Shown: in pieces, positions 31,619-39,605 of the stretch | How positions within the stretch are numbered: position 1 is the first letter of the stretch | Layout: the number at the start of each line of letters is the position of its first letter | Assembly: GCF_022347785.1 (NCBI RefSeq) | Contig: NZ_JAKRGA010000001.1 | Span: 496,001 to 560,000 of the forward strand | Direction of reading: 5' to 3' | DNA: 64,000 nucleotides | Origin: Psychrobium sp. MM17-31 | GTDB lineage: Bacteria; Pseudomonadota; Gammaproteobacteria; Enterobacterales; Psychrobiaceae | Notes under the pieces: model-generated | The model's input: only the letters and a program-made list of their open reading frames with translations | The model's database searches: none | What the model was told of the DNA's origin: nothing | Program-made: the position numbers and the translations under genes

Positions 31619-31694
31619 TGGCGTCCCCTAGGGGTTTCGAACCCCTGTTACCGCCGTGAAAGGGCGGTGTCCTAGGCCACTAGACGAAGGGGAC
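31619..31694 (-). tRNA. tRNA-Glu (TTC), copy 6 of 6 in transcription order
   Basis: A 76-base tRNA with encoded CCA. The anticodon loop CTTTCAC carries TTC and the acceptor stem is GTCCCCT / AGGGGAC. It appears identical to the five other copies and is the most distal in the operon. Confidence 0.97.
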
Positions 31695-31724
31695 CCATGG
31701 ACTGTTTTATCGATTGTGCAATGT

Positions 31725-31800
31725 TGGCGTCCCCTAGGGGTTTCGAACCCCTGTTACCGCCGTGAAAGGGCGGTGTCCTAGGCCACTAGACGAAGGGGAC
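31725..31800 (-). tRNA. tRNA-Glu (TTC), copy 5
   Basis: Same 76-base sequence with anticodon TTC and encoded CCA as its neighbours, separated from them by short unrelated spacers. Confidence 0.97.
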
Positions 31801-31840
31801 ACATTAATTGCATCGATAAATGCTTGCTTGAAATAAAGAT

Positions 31841-31916
31841 TGGCGTCCCCTAGGGGTTTCGAACCCCTGTTACCGCCGTGAAAGGGCGGTGTCCTAGGCC
31901 ACTAGACGAAGGGGAC
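31841..31916 (-). tRNA. tRNA-Glu (TTC), copy 4
   Basis: Same 76-base sequence with anticodon TTC and encoded CCA. The spacer on either side is about 40 bases. Confidence 0.97.
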
Positions 31917-31960
31917 ACAGTTTCTTTACTTAAAGCAAAATTGTCATTTGTATTATATGT

Positions 31961-32036
31961 TGGCGTCCCCTAGGGGTTTCGAACCCCTGTTACCGCCGTG
32001 AAAGGGCGGTGTCCTAGGCCACTAGACGAAGGGGAC
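31961..32036 (-). tRNA. tRNA-Glu (TTC), copy 3
   Basis: Same 76-base sequence with anticodon TTC and encoded CCA. Confidence 0.97.
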
Positions 32037-32087
32037 ACAGAGCGCTTAGTTTTCAAGTAAGCATAATACTTTTGATGAGAATAATAG

Positions 32088-32163
32088 TGGCGTCCCCTAG
32101 GGGTTTCGAACCCCTGTTACCGCCGTGAAAGGGCGGTGTCCTAGGCCACTAGACGAAGGGGAC
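32088..32163 (-). tRNA. tRNA-Glu (TTC), copy 2
   Basis: Same 76-base sequence with anticodon TTC and encoded CCA. Confidence 0.97.
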
Positions 32164-32193
32164 ACATATATTACTATCATCGGTGTTATTAAT

Positions 32194-32269
32194 TGGCGTC
32201 CCCTAGGGGTTTCGAACCCCTGTTACCGCCGTGAAAGGGCGGTGTCCTAGGCCACTAGACGAAGGGGAC
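32194..32269 (-). tRNA. tRNA-Glu (TTC), copy 1
   Basis: Same 76-base sequence with anticodon TTC and encoded CCA. It is first of the six and lies 20 bases downstream of tRNA-Ala, with which it is probably co-transcribed. Confidence 0.97.
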
Positions 32270-32289
32270 GCATCTTAATAACTAGTTAG

Positions 32290-32365
32290 TGGTGGAGCTA
32301 TGCGGGATCGAACCGCAGACCTCTTCGCTGCCAGCGAAGCGCTCTCCCAGCTGAGCTATAGCCCC
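32290..32365 (-). tRNA. tRNA-Ala (GGC)
   Basis: A 76-base tRNA with encoded CCA. The anticodon stem-loop CTTCG-CTGGCAG-CGAAG gives anticodon GGC. It is the first gene after a consensus sigma70 promoter and heads the tRNA-Ala/tRNA-Glu operon. In E. coli alaW/alaX (GGC) also sit beside gltX. Confidence 0.97.
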
Positions 32366-32603: not shown

Positions 32604-34013
32604 TTAACCTTCCAAACGAGCACGACAAAACTCAACAGCTTTGGCAATGCGCGCAACACTGCGCTCTTTACCTACAAGTTGTAGTGTCACATCTAAAGAT
32701 GGTGACTGCCCTGCCCCTGTTACGGCAACGCGAAGTGGCATCCCCACTTTACCCATACCAATTTCTAACTCTTTAGCCGTTTCATCAATTGCATTGTGTA
32801 AGTTTTCTAATGACCACTCTTCTAACGCAGCGAGTTTCTCACCAACTAATTGCAATGGCTCAAGCGCTACACCACGTAAATGCTTCTTCGCTGCTGCTGC
32901 ATCGAACTCTTCAAAGTCTTCATAACAGTAACGCGACTGCGCTGCTAATTCTTTAAGGGTATTAACACGCTCGCCTAATGCCGAAACAATGGCTTCTAAC
33001 GATGGACCATTCGACGTATCAATGTTTTGATCATCCATGTGCCAGCTTAAGTATTTAGCAACATGTGATGGCTCACTAGTTTTAATGTAGTGATTGTTTA
33101 ACCACAATAACTTGTCAGTGTTAAAACCAGACGCTGCTTTATTAATAGCATCTAGTGAAAATAGCTCTTTCATTTCATCAACACTAAATACTTCTTGCTC
33201 ACCGTGAGACCAACCTAAACGCACTAAGTAATTAAGTAGTGCTTCTGGCAGATAACCATCATCGCGATATTGCATAACACCTACAGCGCCGTGACGCTTA
33301 GATAGCTTCTTGCCATCGTCACCTAAGATCATAGATACGTGAGCGTATTCAGGAATCGGCGCGCCTAATGCTTTTAAGATATTAATTTGACGCGGTGTGT
33401 TATTGATATGGTCTTCACCACGCACAACATGAGTGATGCCCATATCCCAGTCATCAACAACTACACAGAAGTTATAAGTTGGGCTGCCGTCAGTACGTTG
33501 AATGATAAGATCGTCAAGCTCACTGTTAGCAATAGTAATGTTGTCACGCACGTGATCGTCAAATGATACTTCACCCTCCAATGGGTTTTTAAAGCGAATT
33601 ACGTGAGGAACATCTGTTGGCTGCTCAGCCAAGTTACGACAGTGACCGTCATAACGTGGTTTTTCACCTGCCGCCATTTTCTCTTCGCGCAACTTATCTA
33701 AACGTTCGCTTGAACAGTAACAACGATACGCTTTGTCTTCTTCAATTAACTGAGCAATCAACTCTTTATAACGATCAAAACGCTTAGTTTGGTAGTAAGG
33801 ACCTTCGTTCCATTCTAGACCTAACCATTCCATACCTTCCATAATGGCGTCGATAGCTTCTTGAGTTGAGCGTTCAATATCCGTATCTTCAATACGCAAT
33901 ACAAATTCGCCACCAAGTTTTTGTGCAACAAGCCAAGAATAAAGAGCAGTACGGGCACCACCAACGTGTAAATAACCAGTTGGACTCGGTGCGAAACGTG
34001 TTTTGATTGTCAT
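32604..34013 (-). CDS. gltX: Glutamyl-tRNA synthetase
   Basis: Class I synthetase charging tRNA-Glu; its product also feeds haem synthesis. The 469 residues start [20 protein letters not shown], with the HIGH-type motif as HVGG and the KMSKS-type motif as KLSKRHGA. A zinc-type segment ([20 protein letters not shown]) is present. An upstream TTG two codons earlier is in frame, but the ATG is the usual start. It lies beside six genes for its own substrate, tRNA-Glu, and is divergent from the tRNA-Val cluster, an arrangement close to that of E. coli gltX with alaXW and valUXY. It has its own terminator. Confidence 0.98.
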
Positions 34014-34262
34014 AATCAACAGTAACCTTAATTAGTGCTATCTATAGCAAGCTATAAATAAAGCAGAAGAAAAATAATTGCGTTGCCATAACTACAATAA
34101 TGATATGGCTGATATGGGGCAGCATTTTAGCAATTTACACCACAACTACAATCAAGTTTGCCTGTGAATGTGAAATATTCGATTGAAATTGTTCCAAAAT
34201 GGAATTATTTTGTTCAACTTGATGCAAAAGTCACCGCTTGGTGGTAATTATCAAAAAAAGCG
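34014..34262. other. Intergenic region between gltX and the tRNA-Val promoter
   Basis: AT-rich, no gene recognised. It should hold the gltX promoter on the minus strand; no convincing box pair was fixed. The tRNA-Val promoter begins at 34263. Confidence 0.45.
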
Positions 34263-34290
34263 TTGACTCTAAATCGAGTCTCTCTATAAT
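34263..34290 (+). promoter_or_regulatory. Sigma70 promoter of the tRNA-Val operon
   Basis: TTGACT at 34263-34268, a 16-base spacer, and a perfect TATAAT at 34285-34290, followed by ACGCTCCCGA, a C-rich discriminator typical of stringently controlled tRNA operons. The first tRNA-Val begins about 70 bases downstream. Confidence 0.87.
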
Positions 34291-34362
34291 ACGCTCCCGA
34301 AACGACGAGACAGCAAATGCTTTTTCATCACCTTCTAATTTATAGAAGTAAAACAAAGACCC

Positions 34363-34438
34363 GGACGATTAGCTCAGTTGGGAGAGCATCGCCCTTACAA
34401 GGCGAGGGTCACTGGTTCGAGCCCAGTATCGTCCACCA
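34363..34438 (+). tRNA. tRNA-Val (TAC), copy 1
   Basis: A 76-base tRNA with encoded CCA, acceptor stem GGACGAT / ATCGTCC, and anticodon loop CTTACAA giving TAC. Confidence 0.97.
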
Positions 34439-34478: not shown

Positions 34479-34554
34479 GGACGATTAGCTCAGTTGGGAG
34501 AGCATCGCCCTTACAAGGCGAGGGTCACTGGTTCGAGCCCAGTATCGTCCACCA
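34479..34554 (+). tRNA. tRNA-Val (TAC), copy 2
   Basis: Same sequence as copy 1, 116 bases downstream of it start to start. The 40-base spacer is shared almost exactly with the one after copy 3. Confidence 0.97.
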
Positions 34555-34612: not shown

Positions 34613-34688
34613 GGACGATTAGCTCAGTTGGGAGAGCATCGCCCTTACAAGGCGAGGGTCACTGGTTCGAGCCCAGTATCGTCCACCA
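34613..34688 (+). tRNA. tRNA-Val (TAC), copy 3
   Basis: Same sequence as copy 1, with anticodon TAC and encoded CCA. Confidence 0.97.
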
Positions 34689-34729
34689 TTCTTTTACTAA
34701 AGAATTAAAACATTAGTTATCAAGACCTT

Positions 34730-34768
34730 GTACGATTAGTGCAGGTTAAGAGCGGAGAGCATCGCCCT
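34730..34768 (+). pseudogene. Truncated tRNA-Val 5' half
   Basis: GTACGATTAGTGCAGGTTAA and then GGAGAGCATCGCCCT repeat the acceptor, D-arm and start of the anticodon stem of the neighbouring tRNA-Val genes with small insertions. The copy then breaks off and continues as TTCTAATTTATAGAAG, a repeat of the leader in front of copy 1 (about 34333). It is a recombination scar between two units of the cluster. Confidence 0.8.
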
Positions 34769-34808
34769 CTTCTCACCTTCTAATTTATAGAAGTAAAACA
34801 AAAGACCC

Positions 34809-34884
34809 GGACGATTAGCTCAGTTGGGAGAGCATCGCCCTTACAAGGCGAGGGTCACTGGTTCGAGCCCAGTATCGTCCACCA
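34809..34884 (+). tRNA. tRNA-Val (TAC), copy 4
   Basis: Intact 76-base copy with anticodon TAC and encoded CCA. Its last 30 bases are the first unit of the 140-bp repeat array that follows. Confidence 0.97.
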
Positions 34885-34948
34885 CTTCCCCTTTTCTTAT
34901 TTTTCCAAGATTTAAACTAACTCTGATTCTAGAGTTATATCTCTTTTT

Positions 34949-35024
34949 AAGATTTGCGAGAGAGCATCTTCAACTCTTTACAACCCGAACCGAATCACTG
35001 GTTCGAGCCCAGTATCGTCCACCA
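34949..35024 (+). pseudogene. Decayed tRNA-Val, array unit 1
   Basis: The 3' part (T-arm, acceptor strand, CCA) is identical to tRNA-Val. The 5' part keeps only AGAGCATC and TTACAA islands at about the right distances, so the acceptor stem cannot pair. The 5' limit is approximate. Confidence 0.75.
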
Positions 35025-35088
35025 CTTCCCTTTTTCTTATTTTTCCAAGATTAAAACTCACTCTGATTCTATAGTTATATCTATTTAT

Positions 35089-35164
35089 AAGATTTTCGAA
35101 AGAGCATCTTCAACTCTTTACAACCCGAACCAAATCACTGGTTCGAGCCCAGTATCGTCCACCA
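35089..35164 (+). pseudogene. Decayed tRNA-Val, array unit 2
   Basis: Same structure as unit 1, with an intact 3' third including CCA and a degenerate 5' part. The 5' limit is approximate. Confidence 0.75.
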
Positions 35165-35228
35165 CTTTCCTTTTTCTTATTTTTCCAAGATTAAAACTCA
35201 CTTTGATTCTATAGTTATATCTATTTAT

Positions 35229-35304
35229 ATGATTTGCGAGAGAGCATCTTCCACTCTTTACAACCCGAACCGAATCACTGGTTCGAGCCCAGTATCGTCC
35301 ACCA
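35229..35304 (+). pseudogene. Decayed tRNA-Val, array unit 3
   Basis: Same structure as units 1 and 2, with the 3' third intact through CCA. The next unit lacks even the 3' third. Confidence 0.75.
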
Positions 35305-35660
35305 TTCCCCTTTTTCTTATTTTTCCAAGATTAAAACTCACCTTTACTCTATAGTTATATCTATTTAGAAGATTTGCGAAAGAGCATCTTCAATTCTTTA
35401 CAACCCAAACTGAATCGCCGAGCGGAGCTTCATCTACCACTCGTACTTTTCTCGTCATGTCAAAAATGGCTTGTATCGTCAAATCTTATCAAATGCTCTA
35501 TTTCTAACACCAATGCATCATTTTCCACAGAATAATGCGAAATAACGTTGTTTTTATTGATAATTTCTTAGCGATAATTTGCTCTTTTACCGATGTAGAC
35601 TAACCTTACATAATTGTATAAAAAACACACACGATGAATCGCTGTGTAAGGAAGACTAAT

Positions 35661-36158
35661 ATGTGTTTAACGACACCGCTCGTTAGCAATGCGCTATCAC
35701 TTAACGCAGCACCTAAGCTAATGGAAATGATGAACTTAATGCCAAGCATTGGCCAAGGCGTAGATCATTGTATTAACGATTTAGTGCATGCGTTATGTGA
35801 CTCAGCAAACCAAACAGCGGCCAATAAGCTAATTAATAATGATCTATGTATGTTCTGTGATGAAATATTTTCTATGGTTCGTTCTAGGATGCCGCAAGTG
35901 CTCGAAAAATACAGTGACGACATTGATGATCTTAGTGAGTCAGGAGAATTAGATAGAGCAAATGAGTTAGCAACAAATATCCACTTTCTCTTCCCATCAC
36001 TAGCACCACTAAACAACGAGTTAACCAATCAACAAATATTAGCTTATTGTAATGTAATACGATGCGATAATTTATTAATCGATGAATATCTATCGATTTT
36101 CAAACCACTCTACGACAAAATTGAAGCTAGTAGGACTTATGCTAAAGCTGCAAATTAA
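35661..36158 (+). CDS. Hypothetical protein, 165 residues
   Basis: Not recognised. The ATG at 35661 (MCLTTPLVSNALSLN) has AAGGA 8 bases upstream and is preferred to an ATG nine codons earlier. The product is soluble and mostly helical by composition, has no signal peptide, and contains five or six cysteines including C-M-F-C (NNDLCMFCDEIFSM) and NVIRCDNLL. Acidic runs (KYSDDIDDLSESGELDRANE) occupy the middle. It stands alone between the tRNA-Val array and a minus-strand gene, and codon use looks like that of its neighbours. No function can be offered. Confidence 0.6.
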   Translation: MCLTTPLVSNALSLNAAPKLMEMMNLMPSIGQGVDHCINDLVHALCDSANQTAANKLINNDLCMFCDEIFSMVRSRMPQVLEKYSDDIDDLSESGELDRANELATNIHFLFPSLAPLNNELTNQQILAYCNVIRCDNLLIDEYLSIFKPLYDKIEASRTYAKAAN

Positions 36159-38810: not shown

Positions 38811-39098
38811 TTAAGTTGGATTAACTATCCAGCGCACTTTTCCGAGTATTTGGGTGGGTTTAATACAGCCCATTTGTTCAACTGACAAACTGGCATGACT
38901 GTCACCTGCCAAATAGAAACCACTAATATTATCACCCCAGATAATACGTTTAACGATGGGGCCATAATAAGGATGCTCTACCTGAACCACATCGTTAACT
39001 TGATACAAAGGAGCAGGTTTTACAAACAAATAAGCACCATGCTTAATCGCCGGCAACATACTGCGTCCTGCTGCTTTTATAATCTGGTACCCGAACAT
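38811..39098 (-). CDS. sodX: NiSOD maturation peptidase (S24/S26 type)
   Basis: A 95-residue serine protease of the signal-peptidase-like S24/S26 fold. The catalytic pair can be read as Ser13 (AAGRSMLPAI) and Lys50 (YGPIVKRII). The small size and the position 6 bases after sodN match the NiSOD maturation protease, which removes the propeptide so that His1 and Cys2 can bind nickel. It lacks a clear membrane helix. It is the last gene of the operon. The family is clear from motifs and the role from adjacency. Confidence 0.85.
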   Translation of the reverse strand: MFGYQIIKAAGRSMLPAIKHGAYLFVKPAPLYQVNDVVQVEHPYYGPIVKRIIWGDNISGFYLAGDSHASLSVEQMGCIKPTQILGKVRWIVNPT

Positions 39099-39104
39099 CG
39101 TAAA

Positions 39105-39605
39105 TTAGTTAAGTTTTGGGTAAACCAGCTCTTGTGCTGGCGGATAAGGTGATACCGCGCGAAATACTTCAACGCCCTTGGTTGCCCAGAAAATCTCAGC
39201 AAAGCGGTTAACCAGCTCCAGTAACTCCAATGTTACCGCTCTATCGATATGCTGCTTGGCCGCTGATGTTTTTAGCATAATAGAATGAACTAGTTGGTGA
39301 ATTTCTGGAAATGCATCTAGCTGAGGCTGCTTAATATAATCCCCCCAAATTACCCGAACCTCTTCTTTAACTTTATGCCCATGCGTTTCTTTTTCGCTGA
39401 CTAAACGCGAAAATTGCGCCTTATCATTAGCAGTCCAATCGGACTTTTGATTGAGCTCTTCAAGAAGGTCAACCATACGGATCATTGTTAAAACCGCTAG
39501 CTGCGCTGAAATTGGATCGTAAATCTTACAGGGAATATCGCAGTGAGCTGATACGCGCTCAAAACCCATTTTTGCATCTAGCTTGTTGAGTAACTTAAAT
39601 AACAT
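39105..39605 (-). CDS. sodN: Nickel-containing superoxide dismutase
   Basis: Converts superoxide to oxygen and hydrogen peroxide with a nickel centre. The 166-residue precursor has a 20-residue leader ending in ERVSA, and the mature protein begins HCDIPCKIYDP. His1, Cys2 and Cys6 of that nickel hook are all present; the usual form is HCDLPCGVYDP, so the variable positions Leu3Ile and Gly7Lys differ. The rest is helical, as in the family's four-helix bundle. The enzyme is a homohexamer in Streptomyces. Upstream genes are only 8 bases and 38 bases apart, and a Fur-like site heads the operon, which suggests use when iron is scarce. Confidence 0.95.
   Translation of the reverse strand: MLFKLLNKLDAKMGFERVSAHCDIPCKIYDPISAQLAVLTMIRMVDLLEELNQKSDWTANDKAQFSRLVSEKETHGHKVKEEVRVIWGDYIKQPQLDAFPEIHQLVHSIMLKTSAAKQHIDRAVTLELLELVNRFAEIFWATKGVEVFRAVSPYPPAQELVYPKLN

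Follow-up and report, generated by a model that had tools for sequence, protein, structure and literature searches.

Repeats with a conserved core behind valine tRNA genes: a putative tRNA-Val-derived tandem trailer element in two families of one order

Tandem repeats that end in copies of a tRNA 3' end are, to our knowledge, known mainly from one locus of Escherichia coli, and their role there is unsettled. A stretch of 64,000 nucleotides from the genome of Psychrobium sp. MM17-31 (hereafter the window) carries units of this kind behind the last of four tRNA-Val genes, and the question raised by this locus is whether the units are tRNA copies on their way to decay or whether they have been kept for a function. 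A full-text literature search, evaluated at the level of titles and abstract openings, found no description of such repeats behind tRNA-Val.

The window array is a repeat of a spacer plus a broken tRNA. The exact 140-base period of the units after the fourth tRNA-Val, noticed in the first-pass annotation, was confirmed with Tandem Repeats Finder, which reports period 140, 4.0 copies, 93% matches and 0% indels at 34855-35416. The operon and the array comprise the following features, the bit scores being those of R1, a sequence-only model built from 12 units.

32604..34019, minus strand: gltX-like gene (presumably gltX), syntenic marker, relatives of whose protein were fetched
34263..34290, plus strand: predicted sigma-70-like promoter of the tRNA-Val operon, TTGACT-16-TATAAT (consensus scan, 11/12 positions)
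34363..34438, plus strand: tRNA-Val(TAC) 1
34479..34554, plus strand: tRNA-Val(TAC) 2
34613..34688, plus strand: tRNA-Val(TAC) 3
34809..34884, plus strand: tRNA-Val(TAC) 4, which opens the 140-bp register
34885..35024, plus strand: repeat unit 1, made up of spacer, core and tRNA 3' end
34958..35003, plus strand: core of unit 1 (57.1 bits; unit used in the model)
34995..35024, plus strand: tRNA-Val 3' end copy of unit 1
35025..35164, plus strand: repeat unit 2
35099..35143, plus strand: core of unit 2 (55.3 bits; unit used in the model)
35135..35164, plus strand: tRNA-Val 3' end copy of unit 2
35165..35304, plus strand: repeat unit 3
35238..35283, plus strand: core of unit 3 (56.3 bits; unit used in the model)
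35275..35304, plus strand: tRNA-Val 3' end copy of unit 3
35305..35416, plus strand: truncated repeat unit 4 (spacer and core; tRNA 3' end missing)
35379..35416, plus strand: core of unit 4 (32.5 bits; unit outside the model)

All four tRNA-Val(TAC) genes are intact. The promoter call is supported by the position and quality of the site and not by the number of such sites, the consensus scan having found three promoter-like sites where 5.5 would be expected in the 2-kb region. The 30-base tRNA-Val 3' end (TCACTGGTTCGAGCCCAGTATCGTCCACCA), searched for with up to three mismatches, has seven occurrences in the genome, of which four belong to the tRNA genes and three lie at 34995, 35135 and 35275; the reversed control gave no match. 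The earlier claim that every unit carries an identical tRNA 3' end holds for units 1-3, whose copies equal the tRNA gene at 30/30 positions, but not for unit 4, where the 3' end is gone after its 5' part and 12/30 positions agree. Over the 46 bases before the 3' end the units resemble each other at 40-44 positions, as against 7-8 of 46 when compared with the tRNA in register. The spacer downstream of the intact tRNA-Val 4 is identical to that of unit 1 at 58 of 64 positions, so this gene is itself part of the same repeat register.

Directly before tRNA-Val 4, at 34729-34808, there is also a broken tRNA-Val copy that comprises just the 5' half and is joined to a duplicate of the operon leader (34320-34362). 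On the far side of gltX, the minus strand carries a row of six tRNA-Glu(TTC) genes and one tRNA-Ala(GGC) gene (31619-32365). A 174-codon reading frame without a Pfam match lies at 35634-36158; its counterpart in genome G007 (G numbers denote genomes and L numbers loci throughout) is 31% identical, other syntenic neighbours there being 42-92% identical. At 38811-39605, a nickel superoxide dismutase gene adjoins a small S24-type peptidase gene.

A pattern taken from the middle of the unit matches three of the nine genomes of the window's genus. At the syntenic site of G007 there is an array with 119-bp spacing, the core sequence being present and the contig starting inside the array, and G005 has a single full-length broken tRNA-Val copy carrying the same middle sequence; within the genus, no unit was found behind tRNA-Val in G002 and G008, and none was recognisable in G006. 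Among 394 genomes of the order, a 26-base pattern from this middle (up to three mismatches) matched six, three of them from f7, i.e. the family other than the window's (the two families are labelled f1 and f7 here), and its reversed control matched two of the 394. The matches lie directly behind tRNA-Val(TAC) in G320 (five, 100 bp apart), G136 (three, with 121 bp spacing) and G233 (two, with 113 bp spacing). In f7, R1 found 47 of 395 genomes, representing 14 of 52 genera, and 38 of these 47 have 2-7 matches. With stricter filters, at which weak matches are lost, R1 matched 8/394 genomes across the order, all from f1 or f7, and 2/369 across the class, both from these same families. The distribution of the core is patchy, 348 of the 395 f7 genomes being without an R1 match and six of the nine genomes of the genus without a pattern match, draft gaps included.

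From f7, 48 regions were fetched, and R1 made 159 matches in 54 sources, of which 150 matches from 53 loci were aligned (alignment A3), with L227 dropped. tRNA-Val(TAC) is in view at 42 of the 53 loci; the 129 units there are without exception on the same strand as it, and 128 of them have tRNA-Val as the closest tRNA upstream. Of these units, 113 follow the operon, and the remaining 16, at 13 loci, precede another tRNA within 600 bases. Nine of the 11 loci without tRNA-Val(TAC) in view have a unit less than 200 bases from a contig end, whereas L202 is 478 bases from one and L184 has a tRNA-Val 3' half upstream. The presence of arrays in single-contig assemblies (G320, G136, G473, G523 and others) is evidence against an assembly artefact. 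The first-pass annotation had taken the lack of an array at the orthologous site in relatives as the mark of a neutral local duplication; in many relatives an array does sit there, at the tRNA-Val(TAC) operon beside gltX. As far as these comparisons can tell, the repeats form a tandem trailer element that belongs to the valine tRNA operon, derives from tRNA-Val and is present in two families of one order.

Each unit consists of an AT-rich spacer of free sequence, a C-rich core at the place of the former anticodon arm, and the 3' end of the operon's tRNA with CCA. The core in the 5' part of the unit reads AGCAYCTTCWACTCTTTACnnCCC (in a longer, approximate reading AGCAYCTTCWACTCTTTACnnCCCGnnCCRARTCA), and tRNA-Val lacks its centre. 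Its mean pairwise identity is 0.852 (19 columns, 53 loci), a value inflated by most loci having been found by the core itself, compared with 0.320 for the 30 bases of spacer upstream (50 loci), which is close to the 0.313 obtained after shuffling. The f7 loci entering the counts of core identity, spacers, 3' ends, terminators and placement were all found by R1, the spacers themselves being unselected. In a less biased sample, the exact tRNA-Val 3' pattern was found in 39 of 118 genomes, 21 of which are also R1-positive (hand count). As the gltX protein of the f7 loci is 65-73% identical to that of the window, neutral DNA is expected to be saturated at this distance.

The 5' half of the unit had been described as merely decayed beside a maintained 3' end. 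This description does not stand, given that the middle of this half is the core, kept across genera and missing from the donor tRNA, and given that G005, G007 and G233 combine an intact core with a damaged 3' end. The upkeep of the 3' end mostly extends to the relatives, where the 129 of 150 units whose 3' tail could be recognised deviate from the tRNA at 336 of 3870 sites (8.7%). The T-stem GG is often AA or AG with the facing CCC unchanged, so the T arm is often unable to form. Conversion from the intact genes could account for the maintained tRNA 3' end; it cannot explain the maintained core, because the intact genes lack the core centre and conversion acts within one genome. The conservation of the core across related genera points to a putative RNA signal that has not been described before.

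As to the origin of the units, the tRNA 5' half is retained in front of the core in G233, G005 and L212 (genome G483). The unit at L212 (1753-1836) has a whole tRNA-Val body in which the anticodon arm alone is replaced, by the core, and by eye the acceptor, D and T arms all remain able to form. With these intermediates in hand, the ancestor was likely a whole copy of tRNA-Val whose anticodon arm was exchanged for the core; in many lineages the 5' half would then have disappeared and the remainder been amplified. Units without the core have also been encountered. Behind tRNA-Val, L245 (about 1639-1935, G291) has a tandem array with the tRNA 3' end closing its units, and L258 (about 1725-2247, G077) has repeats of ~175 bp that contain the tRNA 3' end and a variant middle, GCCCGCTTATTCAATGCCCGG. 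At L044 (Motilimonas cestriensis), the last tRNA-Val is directly followed by one broken tRNA-Val copy that has the tRNA 3' end and differs in its middle. Repeats of this type thus seem to form recurrently.

The suggestion that the layout of the E. coli tyrT repeats recurs here on another tRNA was borne out when E. coli itself was checked, the last 20 bases of tyrV recurring three times downstream in MG1655 at 178-base spacing, with one mismatch. Both systems have tandem same-strand units behind intact tRNA genes that end in a tRNA 3' end with CCA, as do three of the four units of the window. The E. coli repeats differ in deriving from tRNA-Tyr, in lacking the core motif (not found within four mismatches in the 700 bases read) and in carrying the annotated tpr frame in the unit, whereas the 140-bp period here shifts the reading frame from unit to unit. 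The rtT family is among Rfam's curated models. At gathering scores, tRNA was the only Rfam family matched in the window; among weaker matches, HPnc0260 (32.3 bits, the gathering score being 59) overlaps the array on the opposite strand and SNORD43 falls outside it. The array units of L147-L149 and L120 had no Rfam match even below gathering. The array is laid out like rtT and is not filed as a member of the rtT family. The structure of the tyrT element is among the matters treated in PMC8250186.

Three candidate features of the units were considered and set aside. A coding role is at odds with a period that is not a multiple of three and with a one-base deletion in the core of G005, and the array holds a single reading frame, TTG-started and of 86 codons, which runs across units. 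A conserved structure in the core was likewise rejected, as RNAalifold predicted no base pair within it and the z values of six single-sequence folds range from -1.64 to 1.11; many cores, not all, allow an upstream hairpin with a CACC end to be drawn by eye. Antisense pairing to 16S rRNA was provisionally dropped as a conserved feature, the longest antisense match being at most 9 at 39 of 53 loci; CTTTACAACCCG is complementary to a 12-base stretch of 16S rRNA (present in G320), and matches of at least 12 occur at 14/53 loci, which are related by descent, as against 5/1060 shuffles.

The base composition of the arrays is skewed, with a C/G ratio of 1.95-2.94 at six loci. The pooled spacers have 709 C and 350 G, and 23 of 26 loci have more C than G in them. 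Changes in the tRNA-derived 3' end affect G at 139/650 sites and C at 108/1419; counted once per locus, G>A is found at 57/240 and C>T at 49/528 (Fisher P 2e-7, for loci that are not independent of each other). The core plus the 3' end does not fold more weakly than mononucleotide shuffles (mean z 0.18, 50 loci). By our own criterion, none of the 38 loci with trailing units (55 loci minus 11 without tRNA-Val and six without a trailing unit) has an intrinsic terminator between the genes and the array. One weak terminator lies within an array and there are six candidates in the next 350 bases (fewer bases having been read at contig ends), of which that of L198 alone looks convincing; in the window, the scan returned two candidates, both on the opposite strand.

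The C-over-G bias, the lack of predicted pairing in the core and the missing intrinsic terminators suggest an unpaired Rho site, possibly one acting with Nus factors. The array would be transcribed from the tRNA-Val promoter as a trailer of the operon, as suggested by same-strand units following the genes with no intrinsic terminator between. The repeated, G-poor, C-rich and unpaired core RNA might then load a protein that acts in the elongation or termination of transcription, Rho being the likeliest candidate; the boxA-like stretch CTCTTTA of the core could bind NusB-S10 alongside, and the bound factor would end or tune the tRNA-Val transcript. We favour this reading tentatively, considering it rather likelier to be wrong than right. 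Rho-dependent termination is known from the E. coli tyrT repeats, and Rho-dependent terminators in general share with the arrays a C-rich, G-poor RNA and, here, the lack of an intrinsic terminator between operon and array; they differ in that the array has a fixed core, a tRNA-derived tandem layout and some units between tRNA genes. A rut site is C-rich, G-poor RNA that requires no fixed sequence, so the core appears over-conserved for Rho alone, and its fixed sequence suggests a recognition more specific than at an ordinary rut site. Counting against a Rho site are also the 16 units that precede a tRNA gene, since a true terminator would cost the next tRNA, and the kept tRNA 3' end with CCA (91% of sites in the 129 units with a tail), which Rho loading does not need. 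Moreover, regions behind tRNA-Val without the core are C-rich as well (C/G above 1 at 27 of the 28 loci read, 31 having been taken and three having no downstream sequence), and intrinsic terminators are also missing from many relatives outside the Enterobacteria-type operons (at 19 of 39 loci), so the array is unnecessary for that property.

The main rival of Rho/Nus loading is a small RNA or sponge present in multiple copies, whereby units would be cut from the tRNA-Val precursor from CCA to CCA and the core would pair with mRNAs or with another small RNA. We deem it somewhat unlikely, although the tyrT repeats of the same layout carry an annotated small RNA, RttR, the unpaired core comes mostly in 2-7 copies with the CCA-ending 3' end kept in most units, and many differences between cores are C/T or A/G, as pairing to G or U would permit. 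The 3'ETS-leuZ sponge derives from the 3' external transcribed spacer of a tRNA transcript, is present in a single copy and is not itself tRNA-derived. An array RNA derived from the trailer would share with it the origin from a tRNA transcript, but would differ in its multiple, tRNA-derived copies, and no long complementary partner was found here in 13 genomes. In these, a search for 17-nt complements tolerating G-U pairs (up to one mismatch) hit the arrays and four single sites (in G655, G464, where there are two, and G469) without a recurring place, and the reversed control also gave four; nor does any Rfam family besides tRNA match the arrays at gathering scores. A sequence-specific site or decoy of the boxA type, at which NusB-S10 bound to the repeated CTCTTTA would alter elongation through the operon or be titrated by the operon's transcript, we consider quite improbable on its own. 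The boxA consensus is YGCTCTTTAACA. Core variants TRCTCTTTA resemble it, as they partly do the boxA-like site in the rrn leader of G320 (AGTTCTTTAACA), and units between tRNA genes would suit antitermination. Like boxA of rrn operons, the core has CTCTTTA in unpaired RNA of a stable-RNA operon, but it lacks the AACA end, is repeated and mostly sits at the operon's 3' end; its conservation extends well past the boxA-like stretch (CACCTTCT, CCCG, CC), and CTTTACAA is partly descended from the tRNA anticodon loop.

Neutral decay and attachment sites both fit poorly. Under neutral decay, a broken tRNA copy would have been amplified by unequal crossing-over and its 3' ends equalised by gene conversion, as the homogenisation of the spacer after tRNA-Val 4 with the array, the recurrence of the process (the core-less units of L245 and L258 and the broken copy of L044) and the patchiness of the core would all allow. 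Conversion within a genome cannot, however, hold the core alike over 15 genera in which the spacers are at shuffled identity, and we judge this explanation improbable. The proposal, made in the first reading of the locus, that the units are a cluster of attachment sites left by elements integrating at the tRNA-Val 3' end has in its favour that tRNA 3' ends are frequent integration targets in general. It has become very unlikely indeed: a scan of 15 neighbouring proteins at six loci, five of them with units, revealed no integrase, 50,697 phage records gave no match, and the four plasmid records that match do so over just 31-43 query bases starting at the tRNA 3' end. Ten viral contigs contain the 17-base core centre, with R1 covering positions 8-25 alone, and a spacing of ~100-140 bp leaves no room for elements.

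In a broader formulation, which we regard as quite possible though short of probable, the core would be a new sequence-specific RNA signal that grew from a tRNA-Val copy, unpaired sequence replacing the anticodon arm, and the tandem array would act as a sponge or loading array that couples a transcription factor or a small RNA to the level of the tRNA-Val transcript in a clade of related genera. The rtT-like layout now appears as a family, occurring in 15 genera with a different tRNA and a conserved core. This core offers a defined sequence for mutation and for use as bait, and it makes the function of such repeats testable. Copies of tRNA genes that look decayed can, it would seem, harbour a conserved RNA element.
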